Source: an uncultured Myxococcales bacterium
Lineage (GTDB): Bacteria > Myxococcota_A > Polyangia > Polyangiales > Polyangiaceae
Length of the DNA: 64,000 nt
Assembly: GCA_937902985.1 (NCBI GenBank)
Contig: CALFNG010000447.1
Location: 1 to 64,000, forward strand
Reading direction: 5' to 3'
In this document: positions 1,339-22,464 of the stretch, one piece after another
Position numbering within the stretch: the stretch's first letter is position 1
Layout of the letters: every line of letters begins with the position of its first letter
Made by a program: the position numbers and the translations under genes
The notes under the pieces: generated by a model
Database searches by the model: none
Told to the model about the DNA's origin: nothing
The model's input: the letters and a program-made list of their open reading frames with translations, nothing else

Positions 1339-2517
1339 TCACGGCTCGGGCGACGGCTCCGGGAGCGGATCGGCCGAGGGCTCCGTCCGCACGGCGGGGA
1401 GAAAGAACGTGAACGACGCTCCCCCCTCGGGCCGGTTAACACATCCGATGCGTCCGTCGTGCGCCGCCAGAATCCCGCGGCAGATCGTCAGGCCCACGCC
1501 CATTCCGATCCCCGTCGACGCGGCGCGGTAGAATTTCTCGAAGATCCTCTCTTCCTGTCCCGGCGGTACTCCGGGTCCCCAGTCTGCGACTTCGACCTCG
1601 ACCCCGCCCGTCACCGCGCGGGCGCGGATCGCGATGCGAGCGGCCGGCGGAGTGTACTTTGTGGCGTTCTCGACCAGGTTGAGGAAGACTTGCCCCAAGA
1701 GTATCGCGTCGAAGGGCGCGAAGCTCGCTTCGTCTTCGATGTCGACCTCGATGGGCCGATCCGCGAGCTGGTCTTCGAGGCGGCCGAGGGCGACCCCGAT
1801 GACCTCCTCGAGCGGCTGCCACTCCTTGCGAACGCGAAGCGACCCCGCCTCGACGGACGTCATGTCGACGAGGTTCCGGACCAGACGGTCGAGGCGGCTC
1901 GCTTCGTCCGCGATCGTGATCAACTGTGCGCGACGGCGCGCGGGGTCGAGGCTCGATTCTCCCTCGAGCAACCCGGTCGCCGCGCCCTTGATCACGGCCA
2001 GCGGCGTTCGCAAGTCGTGGGACACGGAGCTGAGCAGCGCGTTGCGAAGGCGCTCTTTTTGGACTTCGACCTGCGCGTGCTCCGCCTCCTCGGCCAGCCG
2101 CATGCGGTCCATGGCCAGGCGTACCCGCCCCGCCGCTTCGCGTCGGATGCGTTCGGTCTGGCTGCTGATGACGATCGCGACGAACGCCATGATCAGGAAG
2201 GTCAGGTAGTGGCGGTGATCTTCGACTGTGAAACTCAGGTAGGGAGCCGTGAAGAAGAAATCAAGAGCCACGATGCTCAAGGCCGTTGCGGTCAACGACG
2301 CCACGTAGCCGAAGCCCACGGCCATGGCGACGACGCCAAGCAGGAACACCATGACGATGTCCGCCAACCTGCGGTCGAGGAACGTCCACGAGATCGCGGT
2401 CTCGATGGCGACGGTCGTGACGCTGGCGGCGAGTGCTCGCGCCCGGCCGCCCGTCCTCTGCGGCTCACCGTGCTTCGGGACGCGCTCCGGCGAGAGTTCG
2501 ACCGACGGATCAGCCAA
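1339..2517 (-). CDS. KdpD-like sensor histidine kinase, short form
   Basis: Membrane histidine kinase. Four hydrophobic segments in the first third (ALAASVTTVAIETAISW, IVMVFLLGVVAMAVGFGYV, LTATALSIVALDFFF, LTFLIMAFVAIVISS) match the DUF4118 module of KdpD. These are followed by a HisKA domain with SVSHDLRTPL, an N-box (NLVENATKYTPP), a G1 box (DWGPGVPP) and a G2 box (GVGLTICRG). The N-terminal KdpD and Usp domains of true KdpD are absent. The start is uncertain: a TTG at 2517 overlaps the stop of the upstream regulator, and an ATG at 2577 would overlap it by 68 nt. The gene follows the companion regulator as in the second locus at 18-20 kb, whose kinase is frameshifted. This is therefore the only intact KdpD-like kinase in the window and may serve both KdpE-like regulators (inference). 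Its signal is unknown, and no kdpFABC genes are nearby. Confidence 0.88.
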   Translation of the reverse strand: MADPSVELSPERVPKHGEPQRTGGRARALAASVTTVAIETAISWTFLDRRLADIVMVFLLGVVAMAVGFGYVASLTATALSIVALDFFFTAPYLSFTVEDHRHYLTFLIMAFVAIVISSQTERIRREAAGRVRLAMDRMRLAEEAEHAQVEVQKERLRNALLSSVSHDLRTPLAVIKGAATGLLEGESSLDPARRRAQLITIADEASRLDRLVRNLVDMTSVEAGSLRVRKEWQPLEEVIGVALGRLEDQLADRPIEVDIEDEASFAPFDAILLGQVFLNLVENATKYTPPAARIAIRARAVTGGVEVEVADWGPGVPPGQEERIFEKFYRAASTGIGMGVGLTICRGILAAHDGRIGCVNRPEGGASFTFFLPAVRTEPSADPLPEPSPEP

Positions 2518-3237
2518 GCTTGAGCCGATACCCTCTGCCGGGAGCGCCCACCAGGTGTCGCGGGCGCTCCGGGTCACACTCGATCTTCTGCCGCACCTGG
2601 CGCACGAGCTTGCGCAGGTACTGCGCCTTCCGCGGGCGGCTGATCCCCCACACCACCGCCACAGTCTCGTCCTCCGAAAGCGCCCGTCCCTGGCTCTGGA
2701 CCAGCGCGGCGATGAGCCGGCACTCCATCGGCGTCATGTGCATCTCCTGTTCGTCCACGAAGAGCCGCTGTCGGTTCCAGTCGAGGCGCAGGCGCGTTTG
2801 GCCCGCCTCCTGGGTCACGCTGGCGTCCCTCGAGCGCGGGAGCCGCGCATCAGCCAGGCCCGTGTCAGCGAGACCCGGTCGGTCGAGCTCAGAGAATCCA
2901 GCACACACTCGCTGGCGCTCGCGTCAATCAGGACCGCGCGCTCTCCAGCGCGCCTCAGCACGACGAGGATGGGCGCCGCCGAGCCGACGCGGAGGCGTCG
3001 TACGATTCCAACCCCATCGATCCCCGGTTCGCTCAGGTCGACCCATACGAGGCGCGCCCCGTGCGCGAGACCGCGACGACTCGCCCCGATGGCGAGCCCC
3101 AGCCGAACGCAGCGGAAGCCGTCGGCAGCAAGGGCCGCAACGAGCGACCGCTGCGCCGGGGAATCGTCTGCGACGACGAGCACCAAGGGTTGAACGGTGC
3201 CGTTGACCATCCACGAAGACGGGGCGCGAGCAAGCAT
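2510..3237 (-). pseudogene. KdpE-like companion regulator, degenerate receiver, frameshifted
   Basis: An OmpR-type regulator split between two frames. The first part starts at an ATG at 3237 with a GGGAG ribosome site. It reads through a receiver domain (QPLVLVVADDS; phosphoacceptor-like Asp in VWVDLSEPG) and runs out of frame near 2820-2850. The second part supplies the winged helix (TPMECRLIAALVQSQG, ending RGYRLKLG). The intact relative at 18449-19183 shows the expected continuity. Even before the frameshift the receiver is odd: the conserved Lys of the usual DYLTKPF motif is replaced (ECVLDSLSS), so classical phosphorylation signalling is doubtful. The kinase follows directly. A sequencing error could explain the shift; otherwise this is a pseudogene. 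Confidence 0.7.
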
Positions 3238-3288
3238 GGGTCTCCCGGCGCTCGAGGCGTTCGCGGAGTTGATGTACCGCGGCCGCCA

Positions 3289-3307
3289 ATCAAAAGGACG
3301 TAAATTC
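3289..3307 (-). promoter_or_regulatory. KdpE-like box with a 19-bp sequence shared with the second locus
   Basis: Read on the minus strand this is GAATTTACGTCCTTTTGAT, identical over 19 bases to 18397-18415. Both copies lie shortly upstream of the companion-regulator start (52 nt here). A CGGTACA also recurs at the same spacing downstream of both copies. The TTTAC-N6-TTGAT core has the 11-bp spacing of the other boxes. Confidence 0.65.
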
Positions 3308-3501: not shown

Positions 3502-4302
3502 ATGACGGACGCGACCTTCGAAAGCGAGCGGCAGTTGAACGCCATGCAAATCGGTTCCGCGTATTCGAGCCCTCGGCCGCACGTAACAGGCCCCACGGCC
3601 CCGGCGGCCGTTGCGCCGCTGATCCTCGTCGTCGAAGACGACAGGCGGATGCTCACGTACCTGCGTACGACGCTCACGGACCAGCATCTCCGCGTCGTCG
3701 AGACGGAGACGGGCGCCGAGGCTCTCACCCTGGCCTCTGCGCACAACCCCGATCTCGTGGTCCTCGATTTCTCTCTACCCGACACGGACGGGGTTCAGAT
3801 CACGACGAAGCTGCGCGAGTGGACGGGGGCGCCCATCCTGCTGCTGTCGGCGCGCGCCGAGGAGTTCGACAAGGTGGCGGCCCTCGACGCCGGCGCCAAC
3901 GACTACCTGACGAAGCCGTTCGGCAGCGGCGAGCTCCTCGCTCGAATTCGCGTATGGCTGCGGCACACGCAGAGGCAGCCTGGGAACTCGCTGCAGCCGA
4001 CCCTCGACGTGGGTCCGCTGCGCATCGACTTCGACAAGCGTCTCGCGTTCCTCGCCGGGCGAGAGGTTCGCCTCACGCCGACGCAGTACAAGCTCTTCGC
4101 CACGATGATGCGCAACGCGGGGAAAGTCCTGACTCACGAACAGATCCTGCTCGCCGTGTGGGGGCTGGCCTACACCCGAGAGACCCAGTACCTCCGCGTG
4201 TACATGGGGCAGCTCCGCCAGAAGTTCGAAGACGATCCCGCCCGGCCGCGGTACCTTCTCACGGAGCCCGGAATCGGATACCGCCTTCGTCCGGAACGCT
4301 GA
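3502..4302 (+). CDS. KdpE-like OmpR-family response regulator
   Basis: Intact DNA-binding response regulator of 266 residues. It has an unusual Ser/Pro-rich leader of about 38 residues and then a receiver with acidic pair Glu45-Asp46-Asp47, phosphoacceptor Asp89 (VVLDFSLPDTDG), Ser116 and Lys138 (DYLTKPF). An OmpR/PhoB winged helix follows, from about 160 to 264 (RLTPTQYKLF, ending GIGYRLR). The C-terminal half is nearly identical to the regulator at 17504-18235. KdpE is the closest named family, judged from the wHTH and the KdpD-like partner. It diverges from the companion regulator. The 265-nt gap contains the shared box at 3289-3307 and a weaker TTTAC-N6-GATAT at 3436-3451, so mutual or auto-regulation is plausible. 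The ATG at 3502 was chosen as the first in frame; a start nearer Pro39 is possible. Confidence 0.9.
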   Translation: MTDATFESERQLNAMQIGSAYSSPRPHVTGPTAPAAVAPLILVVEDDRRMLTYLRTTLTDQHLRVVETETGAEALTLASAHNPDLVVLDFSLPDTDGVQITTKLREWTGAPILLLSARAEEFDKVAALDAGANDYLTKPFGSGELLARIRVWLRHTQRQPGNSLQPTLDVGPLRIDFDKRLAFLAGREVRLTPTQYKLFATMMRNAGKVLTHEQILLAVWGLAYTRETQYLRVYMGQLRQKFEDDPARPRYLLTEPGIGYRLRPER

Positions 4303-4304
4303 GA

Positions 4305-4796
4305 TCATTGGCGCGCCGTTGCGAAGCTACGCGCGCGACTCAGGACGCGCTGCGCGTCATCGAAGTTCTTCACCAGAACCGCGGCAACGAACCCATCACC
4401 GGTCGAGTCGACGTCGATGTCGAGCCAGGCTCCCGGAAGGACATAGGGGTCGTCGGGCGCCGCCGCACCCTCGCCCAGCGTCACCCGCGCCTGATGGCAC
4501 TCCAGCGAGCGCTGGAGCGATTCGGCGGAGAGATGGGGGCCGGGCCGGAGCTGTAGTCGCGCGCCCCGGAGACGGATGGCCCGGTCGTTGCCCGATGGAA
4601 CCGTGGAGTATGCCGCGTCCACGTGCTCGATGAGCGAGGGCGAAGCGGCGTCCGCGGTCTGCAGCGCGGATTGGCCCGCACATCGGGCCTCCATCGCGCG
4701 AGCATGATCCGCCGGCGTTCGCGCGTCCGGCAAGAGCGGAAACCATCCACCGCATGCGGCGACCAGCACCAAGATGAGGGAAAGACTTCGGCGCAT
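4305..4796 (-). CDS. Small lipoprotein, second member of the local family
   Basis: Predicted 163-residue lipoprotein. The start is the ATG at 4796, with AAGGAG about seven bases upstream. The signal peptide MRRSLSLILVLVAAC gives a lipobox VAAC at Cys15. The mature part aligns with the product of 609-1133: AAYSTVPSGND, GARLQLRPGPHLSAE, 'ECHQARVTLG' and 'DPYVLPGAWLDIDV'. The gene lies tail to tail with the KdpE-like regulator, with stop codons two bases apart, and has a TTTAC-N6-ATTAC box about 125 nt upstream. Function is unknown. The conserved CH-x-AR and PGAWLDI patches suggest a folded domain rather than a simple tether. Confidence 0.75.
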   Translation of the reverse strand: MRRSLSLILVLVAACGGWFPLLPDARTPADHARAMEARCAGQSALQTADAASPSLIEHVDAAYSTVPSGNDRAIRLRGARLQLRPGPHLSAESLQRSLECHQARVTLGEGAAAPDDPYVLPGAWLDIDVDSTGDGFVAAVLVKNFDDAQRVLSRARSFATARQ

Positions 4797-16681: not shown

Positions 16682-17290
16682 ATCCGAAGGACTCGTACTT
16701 GAACGTCGATGCCGTTCTCGAGGCCGTTCGACGCACCGGCGCCGGCGCCGTTCACCCTGGATACGGCTTTCTGAGCGAGAGGTCGGGCTTTGCGCAGGGT
16801 CGCGTTCGCCGACGCGCGCGTGTATCTCGAGCGCTACGTCGACCAGCCCTGTCACATCGAGGTGCAGGCCTTTTGCGACGCTCAAGGCGGGGCGTACGCC
16901 CTGGGCGAACGCGAGTGCCGCGTCCAGCGCCGGCACCAGAAGATCGTCGAAGAGACGCCGTCGCCGGCCGCCTTCTTCACGGACGACGCGGGCGAAGCGC
17001 GCCGTCGCGAGCTGCACGCCGTGGCATTGCGCGTCGTGAAGAGCGTCGGGTATCTCGGCGCGGGGACGTGCGAGTTCATCGCCGACGCGCGGGGCGATCT
17101 CTTCTTTCTCGAAGTGAACGCCCGCCTGCAGGTCGAACACCCCGTGACGGAGATGGTGACCGGGCTCGAGCTCCAGCTCCATGTGGCAGCGGGCGAGTCG
17201 CTGCCGGATCCCTCCAAGGTCGTGCGAACGGGACACGCCGTCGAAGCGCGCGTGTACGCGGAAGACCCGAGCAAGGGCTTCATTCCGTCA
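16677..17290 (+). pseudogene. Relic of an acyl-CoA carboxylase biotin carboxylase subunit
   Basis: Fragments of a biotin carboxylase joined out of frame. A GTG overlapping the pump stop reads [16 protein letters not shown] then [20 protein letters not shown] jump to another frame skips more than 100 residues, including the ATP-grasp glycine loop. The catalytic half then continues with [46 protein letters not shown] and AYAEDP-like residues ([10 protein letters not shown]), and it breaks at IPS. The C-terminal domain is missing. Bases after 17288 match nothing in the family, so a deletion or insertion end lies there. It cannot be active. An intact carboxyltransferase partner type is at 46775-48298, but the two are 30 kb apart. 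Confidence 0.85.
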
Positions 17291-17503
17291 CAACCACCTA
17301 ACCAGACTATAGAACTCGCTGCGTAAAAACGGTGTAAATTGACGCGGTCGATTGATAAATATGGAAATGGATGTGCCGACGCCCGACGGTCGCGGCCGAC
17401 ACCGTGTCACGCGCTTCGAGGCGAAACGTGGCCAGCGACGAATGGTATTGTCCTAAATACGAAGGCTCGATTCGTCAGCAAATCGTCAACGTCGAGTGTT
17501 CGG
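17291..17503. other. Gap after the relic, with an orphan KdpE-like box
   Basis: No gene. It lies between the broken biotin carboxylase and the 3' end of a minus-strand regulator. The first 80 bases are AT-rich and hold the box at 17323-17338. No start codon lies where that box would be expected to act. Confidence 0.5.
17323..17338 (-). promoter_or_regulatory. KdpE-like box, orphan
   Basis: GTAAA-N6-GTAAA, read on the minus strand as TTTAC-N6-TTTAC, a perfect repeat at 11-bp spacing. It is next to a deletion junction and faces no intact gene, so it may be the promoter of a gene that was lost. Confidence 0.5.
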
Positions 17504-18235
17504 TCAACCCTCGCGAAGCCGATATCCGATGCCTGGCTCCGTGACGAAGTACCGGGGTCGCGCGGGATCCGCCTCGAGCTTCTGCCGGAGCTGTCCCATG
17601 TACACCCGGAGATACTGGGTCTCGCGCGTGTATGCCGGTCCCCACACGGCGAAGAGGATCTGTTCGTGCGTGAGGACCTTGCCGGCGTTGCGCATCATCG
17701 TCGCCAGGAGCTTGTATTGCGTCGGCGTCAGCCGGACCTCCCGCCCCGCGACGGAGGCCACGCGCCGGGCGAAATCGATCCGGAGGTCCCCGACGGCGAG
17801 AACGCTGCTCGTCGAGTCCGACGAGGCACGCTGCGTGTGGCGAAGCCAGACGCGGACGCGCGCCAGGAACTCTCCCGTGCCGAACGGTTTGGTCAAGAAG
17901 TCGTTCGCCCCCGCGTCGAGGGCGGCCACCTTCTCGATCTCCTCGTCCCGGGCGGAGATGATCAAGATGGGCGCTGCGGTCCACTCGCGGAGCTTCGTCG
18001 TGACGTGAATGCCGTCCATGTCCGGCAGTCCGAGGTCGAGCAAGATGAGATCGGGATTGTGCGCCGCTGCCTGCGCCAGAGCCTCGGCCCCGCTCTCGGT
18101 CTCGACCACGCGGAGCCGCTGATCGGAGAGGGTCGCGCGGAGGTACCGCCTCATCCCCTTGTCGTCTTCCGCGAGCAAGACGAGGGGCGCAGCCGCGGAT
18201 CGCGTCACGGTGGTAGCCGGCTGCTCCCCGTTCAT
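17504..18235 (-). CDS. KdpE-like OmpR-family response regulator, second copy
   Basis: Intact 243-residue regulator. The receiver keeps Glu23-Asp24-Asp25, phosphoacceptor Asp67 (LILLDLGLPDMDG), Ser94 and Lys116 (DFLTKPF). The winged helix (LTPTQYKLLATMMRNAGKVLTHEQ, shown here as parts) is almost the same as in the regulator at 3502-4302, differing mainly by Phe/Leu and Leu/Pro changes, so the two probably bind the same DNA site (inference). It diverges from the companion regulator at 18449. The 213-nt gap holds one box for each direction. Unlike the first copy it has no long Pro-rich leader before the receiver. Confidence 0.92.
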   Translation of the reverse strand: MNGEQPATTVTRSAAAPLVLLAEDDKGMRRYLRATLSDQRLRVVETESGAEALAQAAAHNPDLILLDLGLPDMDGIHVTTKLREWTAAPILIISARDEEIEKVAALDAGANDFLTKPFGTGEFLARVRVWLRHTQRASSDSTSSVLAVGDLRIDFARRVASVAGREVRLTPTQYKLLATMMRNAGKVLTHEQILFAVWGPAYTRETQYLRVYMGQLRQKLEADPARPRYFVTEPGIGYRLREG

Positions 18236-18396: not shown

Positions 18397-18415
18397 GAAT
18401 TTACGTCCTTTTGAT
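18397..18415 (+). promoter_or_regulatory. KdpE-like box identical to that at 3289-3307
   Basis: GAATTTACGTCCTTTTGAT, with core TTTAC-N6-TTGAT, ends 33 nt before the GTG start of the companion regulator. The same 19 bases precede the first-locus companion regulator. The repeat survives where the surrounding sequence has drifted, which points to selection on the site. Confidence 0.65.
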
Positions 18416-18448
18416 CGTGCGGCACGGTACACCCATGAAGGGCCCACG

Positions 18449-19183
18449 GTGCTACGCGCTTCCCCCGGGATGGCCGGTTCTGCCGGCGTGCAGCCCCTCG
18501 TGCTCGTCGTCGAGACCGAACCTCAGGTGCGACGCTTTCTCGTGTCGACGCTGGCGACGAACGGCTTTCGCAGCCTGCACGTCGGGACGCGGGCCGGAAT
18601 GCTTGCTCGCGCGGTTGCCCACGAGCCCGACCTCGTCTTGATCAGTGTGGGTCTACGTGCGGTCGACGTGGCCGGGCTGACGTCGAGGCTACGCGCCCGG
18701 ACGCCCGCGCCCATCCTGGCGGTGCTCACGGAGTGGGCGGAAGGCGATCGACGCGCCATCATCGAGGCGGGAGCCGATGACTACGTCGTCAAGCCGTTCT
18801 GGACGGCGGATCTCCTCGAGCGTATGCGCTTCTGGCTCCAGCAAGCGCCGCGCGCGAGGCGAATGGAGAGTCCGTCCTCGCTGCCGGCCGGGAGGTTTCG
18901 TCTCGATCGGGAGCGCCAGCGCCTCTTCGTAGAGGGGCGACAGGTGCACGTCACCCCGCTCGAATGCAGGCTGCTGGCGGCGCTGTCGGCCAGCCGGGGG
19001 GGCGCCCTGAGCGAGGACCAGGTCGTCGCAGCCGTCTGGGGGCCCGGTGGGGGCGGCCACTCTCAGAAGCAGTACCTGCGGGCGCACATGAAGCGGCTCC
19101 GCGAGAAGCTCGAGAGGGACCCCGCCCACCCGCGCTTCCTGGTCATCGATACCGGAGGCAGGTACCGGCTCAAGCCCAGCTGA
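18449..19183 (+). CDS. OmpR-type regulator with a pseudo-receiver
   Basis: A 244-residue regulator. The GTG at 18449 is chosen because GAAGG lies seven bases upstream and because it aligns with the ATG of the paralogue at 3237; an ATG at 18470 is the alternative. The receiver fold is present but lacks phosphorylation residues: the acidic pair is ET (LVVETEP), and the phosphoacceptor position is Ser (LVLISVGLRAVD instead of LLDLGLP). The Lys of DYVVKPF remains. The winged helix is intact (VTPLECRLLAALSAS, ending GGRYRLKPS). It is probably phosphorylation-independent, perhaps acting by dimerising with the canonical regulator or by binding another signal (inference). The kinase gene follows six bases after the stop. 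Confidence 0.85.
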   Translation: MLRASPGMAGSAGVQPLVLVVETEPQVRRFLVSTLATNGFRSLHVGTRAGMLARAVAHEPDLVLISVGLRAVDVAGLTSRLRARTPAPILAVLTEWAEGDRRAIIEAGADDYVVKPFWTADLLERMRFWLQQAPRARRMESPSSLPAGRFRLDRERQRLFVEGRQVHVTPLECRLLAALSASRGGALSEDQVVAAVWGPGGGGHSQKQYLRAHMKRLREKLERDPAHPRFLVIDTGGRYRLKPS

Positions 19184-19189
19184 GGACGC

Positions 19190-20283
19190 GTGCCACTGTC
19201 GATCCACGGCCGGAGGACGTTCGCCGTCGCATTCGGCGCCAGCCTGGGGACGGTTGGCCTTGCGGTGGCCGTCGGGTGGTTCGTGCTCGACCGCCAGTTC
19301 ACCGACTGCGTCATGCTCCTCCTGCTGGGGGTGGTCGTGACGGCGGTGCGGTTCGGTTACATGGCCTCGCTCTTGACGAGCGTGCTGAGCCTCGTCGCCT
19401 TCGGCTTCTTCTTCGTCGAGCCTTATTTCAGCCTGGAGATCTACGATCGCCGCTATTTGCTGACCTTCAGCGTGATGCTGTTCGCGTCGCTCGTCATCAG
19501 CAACCAGACCGAGCAACTCCGGAGGAGCCTCTCCGCGACGCGCGAGAAGGACAGCGAGATCGAGAAGGAGCGCGTTCGCAACGCGCTCCTCAGCTCATAT
19601 CCCACGACCTCCGTACACCCCTTGCGGTCGTCATAGGAGCGACTACCGCGCTGCTGGAGGGGGGCGACGGACTGTCGCGCGAGCGCCGGCGCGAATACGT
19701 CCTGACGATCTCGGAGGAGGCGAGCCGCGTCGATCGTCTCGTCCGCAATCTCCTGGACGTGACCGCGATCGAGGCGGGCGCGCTGCGCGTGCGAAAGGAG
19801 TGGCAGGCCATCGAGGAGGTGGTGGGTGTCGCGCTCGGCCGGCTGGAGGACCAGCTGGGCACGCGGCCCGTCCGGGTGCGGATCGCCTCCGACGCCGCGC
19901 TCGCGCCGTTCGACGCCACCCTCATCGAGCAGGTGCTGGTCAACCTCCTGGAGAACGCGGCGAAATACACGCCGCCTGGTGGGCCGCTCGAGGTCAACGC
20001 GCGGCGCGTCGAAGGCGGGATCGAGATCGAAGTCGCCGATTCGGGACCCGGCGTGCCGCCGGGGGAGGAGGAGCCGGTCTTCGCGAAGTTTCATCGCGCG
20101 ACGCACTCGGCGACAGGAATGGGAATCGGACTCACGATATGCCGCGGGATCGCCACGGCGCACGGCGGCCGAATCTGGTGCGAAAACCGCCCCGGGGGCG
20201 GCGCCAGCTTCCGCTTGCTGTTGCCGTCTCGTGCGGAGGCGCCGCCGATGAACGTCTTGCCCGAAGTCCCGCACGACGCCTGA
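19190..20283 (+). pseudogene. KdpD-like short histidine kinase, frameshifted
   Basis: Same build as the kinase at 1339-2517: four hydrophobic segments, then HisKA and ATPase domains. It starts at a GTG with GAGGA upstream, six bases after the companion regulator. The frame is lost at about 19597: it reads ...ERVRNALLSS and then, one base short, resumes as ISHDLRTPLAVV in another frame through to 20283. The missing base falls immediately before the phosphorylated His, so the uncorrected product would be only the membrane part. The downstream ATPase boxes (NLLENAAKYTPP, DSGPGVPPG, GIGLTICRG) are intact, so the lesion is recent or is a sequencing error. Confidence 0.8.
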
Positions 20284-20295
20284 CCGGTGCAATCT

Positions 20296-20338
20296 GTAAA
20301 GCAGATATAAAAATTGATGGGTGTAAATGAGCCGTAAA
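20296..20338 (-). promoter_or_regulatory. Two adjacent KdpE-like boxes
   Basis: GTAAA-N6-ATAAA (20296-20311) and GTAAA-N6-GTAAA (20323-20338), both at 11-bp spacing. Their starts are 27 bp apart, placing them on nearby helical faces. They lie 60-100 nt upstream of the soluble kinase gene at 20399. Confidence 0.6.
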
Positions 20339-21273: not shown

Positions 21274-21289
21274 TTTAAGTTTCTTTGAT
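21274..21289 (+). promoter_or_regulatory. KdpE-like box, TTTAA-N6-TTGAT
   Basis: It has the same second half-site (TTGAT) as the 19-bp boxes at 3289 and 18397, with 11-bp spacing, 68 nt upstream of the third lipoprotein. The first half-site deviates in its last base. Confidence 0.4.
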
Positions 21290-21356: not shown

Positions 21357-21971
21357 ATGATTGCAATGAACGGTATGGCGGGCGGGGCGATCCTCGCGGT
21401 CGCGTCGCTCGTCGCGACGGGCTGCGCGGCTCAGTCATCGGCGTATCGCCAGATGAGCGCCGTGGATCACGAGGCCGCAGCGCGCGCGGCGAGTCCGGCC
21501 GATGCGGAGGGGCACCTCCAGGCCGCGAAGCTCCTCCGCGACGAGGAGCAATCGGCCTGCTACCAGGTGCCCGACGCGGACCGCGCCCGGGGCCCGTTCG
21601 CGGACGCCGACCGAGTCTCTGGCGTCGAGATCGTCCGCGACCGCGGGGTCTTCCCGAAGGGGCCGCTCGAGCCCGTCGGCGTCGCCGTGAGCCTTCGCGC
21701 GGAGCCAGGCATGACGCAGCAGTGGCTGGGCCGGGTCATCGCGTGCCAGATGGCGCACGTCGCGGTCGTGGGCCACGTGTCGGGTGCTTCGCCCTTGTCG
21801 GTCGCGAACACGCAGGTGGCCGTCTCGTCGACGGCGACTGGCTTCCGGGTCACCGTGACGTCGCGCGACAGGGACGTGGTGCGGCTCGTCCTCGGCAAGG
21901 GACAGGAGCTGGCCGACAGCACTGGCGCCAGGCCGAGCATCGCCGGGAGCGGGACAGCGTCGATCCAGTGA
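21357..21971 (+). CDS. Lipoprotein, distant third member of the local family
   Basis: A 204-residue lipoprotein. The ATG at 21357 follows GAGGAG by about nine bases, and the signal peptide ends in VATGC (Cys23). The C-terminal half resembles the two other lipoproteins in layout: a strand with RA-x-PGM-x-QQWL, a C-x-MAH segment in place of CHxAR, then 'VAVSSTATGFRVTVTSRDR', which parallels 'LDI-V-x-F-V'. The PGAWLDI patch is not kept, so the relationship is by pattern only. An Ala/Glu-rich helical segment with HLQAAKLLRDEEQSAC lies in the N-terminal half. It ends the second KdpDE-like locus just as the first member ends the first locus. Confidence 0.7.
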   Translation: MIAMNGMAGGAILAVASLVATGCAAQSSAYRQMSAVDHEAAARAASPADAEGHLQAAKLLRDEEQSACYQVPDADRARGPFADADRVSGVEIVRDRGVFPKGPLEPVGVAVSLRAEPGMTQQWLGRVIACQMAHVAVVGHVSGASPLSVANTQVAVSSTATGFRVTVTSRDRDVVRLVLGKGQELADSTGARPSIAGSGTASIQ

Positions 21972-22039: not shown

Positions 22040-22464
22040 ATGAATCTCGAATTGGAACCGGGGGACTGGGTCGACGACTTCCAGATCGTGCGCGTCCTTG
22101 CGCGCAGCGGGATGGGCTCGGTCTTCCGGGCGCGCCAGCGTACCGCGGGAAGAACCGTCGTCCTCAAGGTGCCGCATTTGCACCTCGAGAGCGACGTCAT
22201 GTTCTTCTCGCGGTTCAGCGCGAAGAGAGCATCGGGCTGCGCTTGAACCATCCCGCGATCGTGAGAGTCATCGCGTACCCCGACAAGAGCCGGCCGTACC
22301 TGGTGACCGAGCACGTCGAGGGTCAGTCGCTCGGGCACTTGATGAGCCGGAGCGGGAGCGAACGCGTTGCGGTGGGCCGCGTTCTCGCGATCGGTCGGCA
22401 GCTCTGCGAAGCCCTCGCTTACCTGCACGGGGAAGGCATCGTGCATCGCGATCTCACGGGCTGA
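22040..22464 (+). pseudogene. Truncated, frameshifted Ser/Thr protein kinase
   Basis: The N-lobe and start of the C-lobe of a Pkn-type kinase. An ATG at 22040 gives DWVDDFQIVRVLARSGMGSVF (glycine loop) and VVLKVPHL (catalytic Lys). The frame is then lost near 22218, where one base is missing. The second frame continues LNHPAIVRVIAYPDK, PYLVTEHVEGQSL, CEALAYLHGEGIVHRDL and stops two codons later. The catalytic loop ends at HRDL, and the Asn, the DFG and the whole activation segment are absent. It is inactive by any reading. Confidence 0.85.

Follow-up and report, generated by a model that had tools for sequence, protein, structure and literature searches.

A KdpE-derived pseudo-receiver regulator, present twice beside its canonical relative and a DUF4118 kinase in an uncultured Myxococcales bacterium

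In an uncultured Myxococcales bacterium, a KdpE-type response regulator gene was copied and the copy then lost its phosphorylation chemistry, giving a regulator, here called the companion, which is encoded together with a canonical KdpE-like regulator and a DUF4118 kinase and which occurs twice in the window, that is, in the whole stretch of 64,000 nucleotides that was analysed. The original prediction had described such a phosphorylation-blind companion of KdpE type, tied in two places to a canonical regulator and a kinase, and in this the analysis agrees with it. Both companions have been under purifying selection in the receiver and in the winged helix since the duplication that separated them, and the operons that they form with their kinases start at sequence matching the operator of KdpE type that precedes kdpFABC in the family. 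We suggest, as a plausible reading that stops somewhat short of being probable, that the companion works as a phosphorylation-uncoupled, dose-controlled and homodimeric competitor in feedback with the canonical regulator.

The two modules are copies inverted relative to each other and separated by about 14 kb in the window (Table 1), with the canonical gene on the minus strand and companion 1 and kinase 1 on the plus strand in module 1, and with can2 on the plus strand and companion 2 and kinase 2 on the minus strand in module 2. Each companion is indeed encoded between a canonical regulator and a kinase, as had been proposed; the promoter that it was supposed to share with the canonical regulator is a common intergenic region, but the genes are divergent in both modules, form no common operon, and have the KdpE-type operator facing the companion–kinase operon only. 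Pfam finds a receiver and a Trans_reg_C domain in can1, can2 and companion 1 alike, and the best solved match of can1 is E. coli KdpE (246.6 bits for 6lgq_D and 245.4 bits for 4kny_A). In kinase 2 (393 aa), Pfam finds DUF4118, HisKA and HATPase_c only, the N-terminal KdpD sensor domain being absent. Small lipoprotein-like genes recur next to the modules (609-1133, 4305-4796 and 21357-21971; also L024, 7977-8597).

Table 1. Features of the two modules and their putative operators (positions in the window)
Feature	Position	Strand	Remarks
Kinase 2 (DUF4118-HisKA-HATPase)	1339..2517	-	Intact; ORF, Pfam
Companion 2, winged-helix ORF	2510..2818	-	GTG start overlaps receiver TGA; GAGGGA 7 nt upstream
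Companion 2, receiver ORF	2815..3237	-	Asp retained; Lys replaced by Asp, Ser/Thr switch by Leu, DD1 by Ala
Putative KdpE-type operator TTTACG-TCCTT-TTGATT, companion 2 leader	3288..3304	-	Core identical to module 1
Canonical KdpE-like response regulator 2 (can2)	3502..4302	+	Start 3502 or 3544; ORF, Pfam
Canonical KdpE-like response regulator 1 (can1)	17504..18235	-	ORF, Pfam; E-D-D/D/S/K complete
Putative KdpE-type operator TTTACG-TCCTT-TTGATC, companion 1 leader	18400..18416	+	TA-type -10-like hexamer at 18428
Companion 1, Asp-less KdpE-derived regulator	18449..19183	+	Start GTG 18449 or ATG 18470
Kinase 1 (DUF4118-HisKA-HATPase)	19190..20283	+	One-base deletion near 19597, just before H-box
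Operator-like site TTTAAGTTTCTTTGAT, TTTAAG-TTTCT-TTGAT	21274..21289	+	Ahead of lipoprotein-like gene 21357-21971; 1 mismatch to TTTACGN5TTGAT

Companion 1 is an intact OmpR/KdpE-type regulator, encoded in a single open frame of 244 codons in which Pfam recognizes a receiver (PF00072, 47.4 bits) and a winged helix (PF00486, 46 bits), both above cut-off. In the alignment the active sites read E-D-D/D/S/K in the canonical regulators, E-T-E/S/L/K in companion 1 and A-D-D/D/L/D in companion 2, companion 1 having lost DD2, D and T, and companion 2 having lost DD1, T and K. It had been foreseen that Ser takes the place of the phosphoacceptor Asp in companion 1, and that its paralogue keeps the Asp and has lost the Lys; the alignment columns bear out both, with Asp standing in the Lys column of companion 2. 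The acidic pair of companion 1, said to be lost, is lost only in part, since its second acidic residue is gone but its Glu remains, as does the Lys. The set of residues typical of the KdpE subfamily, a phosphorylatable Asp together with DD, T/S and K, is thus incomplete in both companions. A pseudo-receiver is defined as a receiver fold missing one or more of five active-site residues (PMC12632262, in excerpt); such residues are missing in both companions and the receiver fold is present in the model of companion 1, which, with its Ser, is also an aspartate-less receiver, whereas companion 2 is a pseudo-receiver but not an aspartate-less one, its Asp being present. Among 83 distinct receiver-containing homologues, the genome's own included, departures at the five active-site positions occur only in the two companions and L015, in a residue check of the best matches only, with loci from about 30 of the 105 matching genomes of the class. 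L015 (1471-2172, G000:C315) is an unrelated OmpR-type regulator of the same genome with Glu in the phosphoacceptor column.

In the predicted structure of companion 1 (mean pLDDT 74.9), the receiver shows all ten of its elements and the winged helix is complete; with a pTM of 0.56 and 5 sequences behind it, the model is informative about the fold and not about the domain arrangement. Its nearest solved folds, in the top places of a fold search, are those of KdpE (4kfc and 4kny), and by sequence against solved structures 6lgq came first, followed by KdpE 4kny.

In a tree of 60 regulators, built after removing matches that aligned over fewer than 190 residues as well as nearly identical rows, the two companions form one clade (bootstrap/SH-aLRT 100/99, stem 1.05) with long branches of 0.78 and 1.89, and this clade adjoins can1, can2 and a third regulator of the same genome (C311:40777-41508) at 95/84, within the KdpE-like group. 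Pairwise dS between the modules is 0.85-1.16 for the canonical, companion and kinase pairs, and because it is alike across the three pairs we read a single duplication of the whole module. As both companions share Leu at the Ser/Thr switch, the loss of the phosphorylation read-out would precede this duplication, and the losses of Asp and Lys differ between companions 1 and 2; judging from these residues, the switch was probably lost before the module duplication, and the Asp or the Lys after it. In L023 (5155-7524; G000:C311:39154-41523), a 223-aa membrane protein that by eye resembles a DUF4118 sensor without the kinase domain overlaps a response regulator by ATGA and is convergent with the closest relative of can1 and can2.

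The leaders of the two companions hold an identical stretch of 18 bases, AATTTACGTCCTTTTGAT, at 18398-18415(+) and 3306-3289(-), where the rest of the divergent regions aligns poorly, and its 16-base operator core has two copies only in the 8.3-Mb assembly when up to 2 mismatches are allowed. It can be read as two half-sites that each begin with TT and lie at a distance of 11 bases (TTTACG, then 5 bases, then TTGAT), which is the architecture of the E. coli KdpE site TTTATA, 5 bases, TTTACA (PMC3264566), and in both leaders a TA follows the operator by 12 bases. Upstream of kdpA, TTTACGN5TTGAT with up to 2 mismatches was found within 800 bases in 16 of 30 loci, compared with 24 of 300 shuffles; these loci are 30 of the 53 matches listed at the level of the family, two more kdpA genes of the genome itself (C111 and C382) lying outside the sample, and they come partly from near relatives (L194 and L195 have the same site), hence they are not all independent. 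Within 1500 bases upstream, sites lie on the operon strand in 15/30 loci and on the opposite strand in 5/30, and a TA stands 11 or 12 bases downstream in 10 of the 16 sense sites located at -250 to -421 from kdpA. A control within kdpA itself gave a sense match in 19/30 loci, so that the pattern does not discriminate promoter from coding sequence; these internal matches we tentatively attribute to a conserved coding stretch, with one such site in the genome's own kdpA. The own kdpFABC operon (C338) carries TTTACG-CGTTC-TTTATC upstream.

In the sister species G002 (L152, 8510 and 9402; G002:C465), the operator is found twice, ahead of kdpFABC and ahead of a porin gene that diverges from it; a small lipoprotein gene separates the two, and relatives of both the porin and the lipoprotein adjoin module 2. 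The window contains 3 sites within 1 mismatch of TTTACGN5TTGAT, as against 0.07 per shuffle, and a direct repeat, TTTACG-GCTCA-TTTAC, lies at about 20323-20338 (-), just after kinase 1. Matches to the 16-base pattern in 55 of 183 genomes (up to 2 mismatches) were taken as chance, except in G002, since a reversed control matched often, and sites with one mismatch in G103, G109, G061 and G051 proved uninformative.

In the winged helix, both companions retain Y191, R193 and R200, and the wing Thr of KdpE (T215), which is Thr in 44 of 47 KdpE-like relatives (a comparison set of 47 rows, with 9 distant rows left out), is replaced by Ile/Gly. The set typical of the KdpE subfamily, R193 and R200 in helix 8 with T215 in the wing, is therefore incomplete, and the full winged helix attributed to the companion is complete as a modelled fold of companion 1 but lacks this Thr, in companion 2 as well. 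In E. coli KdpE, any one of the substitutions R193A, R200A and T215A was enough to abolish DNA binding (PMC3264566). Helix 8 has a charge of +4 and +6 in the companions, compared with 1.9 (sd 0.58, maximum 3) in the 47 relatives, and because T215 is lost and helix 8 is more basic, the way in which the companions bind DNA is probably not that of an ordinary KdpE.

As to the dimer face, we take K87, D92 and R113 to be dimer contacts, from the salt-bridge network of the OmpR family. These were added to contact residues in KdpE numbering from PMC4773095, as given in its excerpted text. Companion 1 keeps the charge at K87, D92, D96, D97, E107, R111 and R113, i.e., at 7/7 positions as against 23/40 other invariants (p 0.03), and for all 12 literature contact positions the figures are 8/10 against 22/37 (p 0.21), an interface bias that is not significant. 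A third contact set, based on PhoB numbering, gave 8/8 against 22/39 (p 0.019). Within the hydrophobic dimer patch, the KdpE residues I88 and A110 have become Arg and Glu in companion 1, at two positions that are uncharged in 47/47 KdpE-like relatives and also in can1 and can2, and these opposite charges suggest that companion 1 pairs with itself and is insulated from its canonical partner.

This bears directly on the mixed dimers that had been proposed. In such a reading, companion and canonical regulator would meet at their alpha4-beta5-alpha5 faces, and the resulting dead-end or half-strength dimers would damp the output. The 7/7 conservation of the charged network would allow such pairing, mixed dimers would bind poorly for lack of the wing Thr, dead-end heterodimers have been proposed for the OmpR family (PMC2586830, in excerpt), and CmrR and CmrT co-purify (PMC12548384, in excerpt). 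Against this, I88R and A110E would face hydrophobic residues of can1 and can2, and E. coli OmpR-family regulators mostly homodimerise, by the same excerpt of PMC2586830. The proposal is thus weakened, with Arg88/Glu110 favouring a re-specified homodimer, and we regard mixed dimers as rather unlikely, though they are the alternative that survives best.

It is also conceivable that the companions are simply paralogues losing their function, and here the search in relatives weighs in favour. The order regulator, pseudo-regulator and kinase, which the original prediction proposed to look for in other Myxococcota, was not found from family to class genomes or in a GTDB scan, an outcome that goes largely against the prediction, since it had named missing conservation among relatives as a refutation: no companion orthologue was found in another genome among 108 of the family, 183 of the order and 317 of the class, counts that include the genome itself, and of 49 stretches matched by a GTDB peptide-pattern scan 2 encode relatives, both canonical, and none a companion orthologue. 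Companion 1 as query matched 34 of the 183 order genomes (own included; E up to 1e-46), all at KdpE level and with a best foreign match of 189 bits, and the companion profile matched 105 of the 317 class genomes (E up to 1e-40; best foreign match 195.7 bits). Kinase 2 matched in 77 of 108 family genomes (E up to 1e-30), and none of the five short DUF4118 kinase loci inspected (L055-L058 and L071) has the regulator–companion–kinase order; a canonical regulator lies directly downstream of the short kinase at L055, L058, L057 and L071, with none in the flank of L056 that was examined. A Kup-type potassium transporter, recognised by eye, adjoins L055, L057, L058 and the genome's own C168, and such neighbours would fit a potassium or osmotic setting. 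The companion is so far known from one genome.

Two lesions point the same way. The stretch 2510-3237, predicted as one gene, turned out to be two overlapping ORFs, with the receiver and the winged helix of companion 2 in different frames and a GTGA overlap in the linker, and by Pfam the winged helix passes while the receiver piece stays below threshold; in kinase 1, a one-base frameshift before SHDLRTP puts the DUF4118 half and the catalytic half in different frames. Either could be a genuine mutation or an artefact of assembly. The majority of the large genes in the window appear intact; gene fragments adjoin module 1, at 16790-17326 and 22040-22464, and by eye these remnants resemble biotin carboxylase and a Ser/Thr kinase. 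Together with the long companion branches, these features speak for decay. Nevertheless, dN/dS of the companion pair is 0.40 [0.22-0.65] in the winged helix and 0.48 [0.29-0.74] in the receiver, reaching 1 or more in 0/2000 bootstraps, as pairwise estimates near saturation that average over the time preceding and following the split of companion 2; the second refutation that the original prediction had named, a DNA-binding helix free of selection, did not come about. These values are higher than those of the canonical pair (0.07 and 0.18). Between the modules, dN rises from 0.08 in the canonical winged helix and 0.17 in the canonical receiver through 0.30 in the catalytic part of the kinase to 0.40 in the companion winged helix, 0.43 in the kinase sensor and 0.56 in the companion receiver. 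Companion 1, moreover, has stayed open throughout, the derived winged-helix residues are common to both companions, the operator is identical at both copies though its flanks have diverged, and the companion–canonical pair has outlived the in-genome duplication of the module at a dS near 1. Decay of both companions seems to us unlikely on this balance, although it keeps some weight.

The companion could alternatively dock on the DUF4118 kinase and so limit phosphotransfer to the canonical regulator, as its place in one operon with the kinase, the KdpE-like helix-1 residues retained in companion 1 and the binding competitors discussed for CmrT (PMC12632262, in excerpt) would permit; this leaves the conserved DNA-binding domain unexplained and sits badly with the far degenerated receiver of companion 2 (17/39 non-contact invariants kept), which makes it improbable. 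Least probable by our estimate is that companion 2 is a working design of two coupled proteins, whose free winged helix binds DNA phosphorylation-free, for although the GTGA overlap is preceded by GAGGGA and the break falls exactly in the linker with the winged helix intact, a single linker indel would give the same picture and an assembly error is possible.

We thus slightly favour homodimeric competition over mixed dimers, with the kinase-docking and decay readings following. In homodimeric competition, the DUF4118 kinase would phosphorylate the canonical regulator, which would bind the operator and raise companion and kinase together; companion 1, with the charged network kept and Arg88/Glu110 in its patch, would dimerise without phosphate and mainly with itself, and because of this its amount, rather than its phosphorylation, would carry the signal, so that control of the companion probably lies in the quantity produced. 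Having an altered winged helix, it would compete in a dose-dependent manner at KdpE-type or related sites, limiting or reshaping the response. Three points may tell against this: the loss of T215 may, by analogy with E. coli KdpE, leave the companions as poor stand-alone DNA binders; the single genome, the split paralogue and the frameshifted kinase may leave room for decay; and the operator is assigned by sequence and its binder may be other than can1 or can2, since the genome encodes several other KdpE-like regulators. That the phosphorylated regulator drives both the twin and the kinase through a KdpE-type operator, the twin, insulated by the charges in its dimer patch, being a dose-encoded competitor at operators of that class, and that the two modules, with interchangeable operators and complementary damage, run as one circuit, is a bolder picture, and as a whole an unlikely one. 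What makes these modules of interest is that the twin adjoins its canonical parent and the kinase, that its operator can be recognised and that the change in its dimer interface can be put to the test; because all of these lie together in two copies, diverged by about one synonymous change per site, the choice between a mixed dimer and an insulated competitor is directly testable.

Pseudo-receivers make up about 6% of bacterial receivers, those characterised experimentally being greatly enriched for orphans, their switching is called an open question, and models of expression-controlled pseudo-receivers have been published (PMC12632262, in excerpt), while Asp-less receivers account for about 2% of OmpR-type regulators (PMC4395418, in excerpt). 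In a search of full-text literature, judged by titles and the openings of abstracts, no KdpE-type companion of this kind was found among the matches listed. By sequence, tree and fold the closest family is KdpE/KdpDE, whose kdpFABC-type operator is matched here, but the companions are without the phosphorylation chemistry and T215, and the kinase is without the N-terminal KdpD domain. BldM and WhiI of Streptomyces are likewise atypical regulators acting together, but they are encoded apart, WhiI is active only as a heterodimer, and they are not known to be of OmpR type. HnoD, an Asp-less regulator that damps its canonical partner, belongs to a different signalling pathway. The closest precedent is CmrT in the CmrRST system of Clostridioides difficile, where a pseudo-receiver regulator is encoded beside its canonical regulator and a kinase (PMC12548384 and PMC12632262) and where, as here, an Asp-less regulator of the OmpR family is linked genetically with a canonical member of that family and with a kinase; its operator is autoregulated, as the companion operator would be. 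In CmrT the phosphoacceptor position holds a phosphomimetic Glu, whereas companion 1 has Ser; CmrR and CmrT are encoded in one operon, whereas here the canonical gene is divergent and there is no three-gene operon like that of CmrRST; the CmrR site is an inverted repeat, whereas the companion operator is a KdpE-type direct repeat; and CmrR and CmrT co-purify, whereas the dimer patch of companion 1 argues for insulation. The companion therefore belongs to a known, poorly understood class of regulators and is not a new kind of system.
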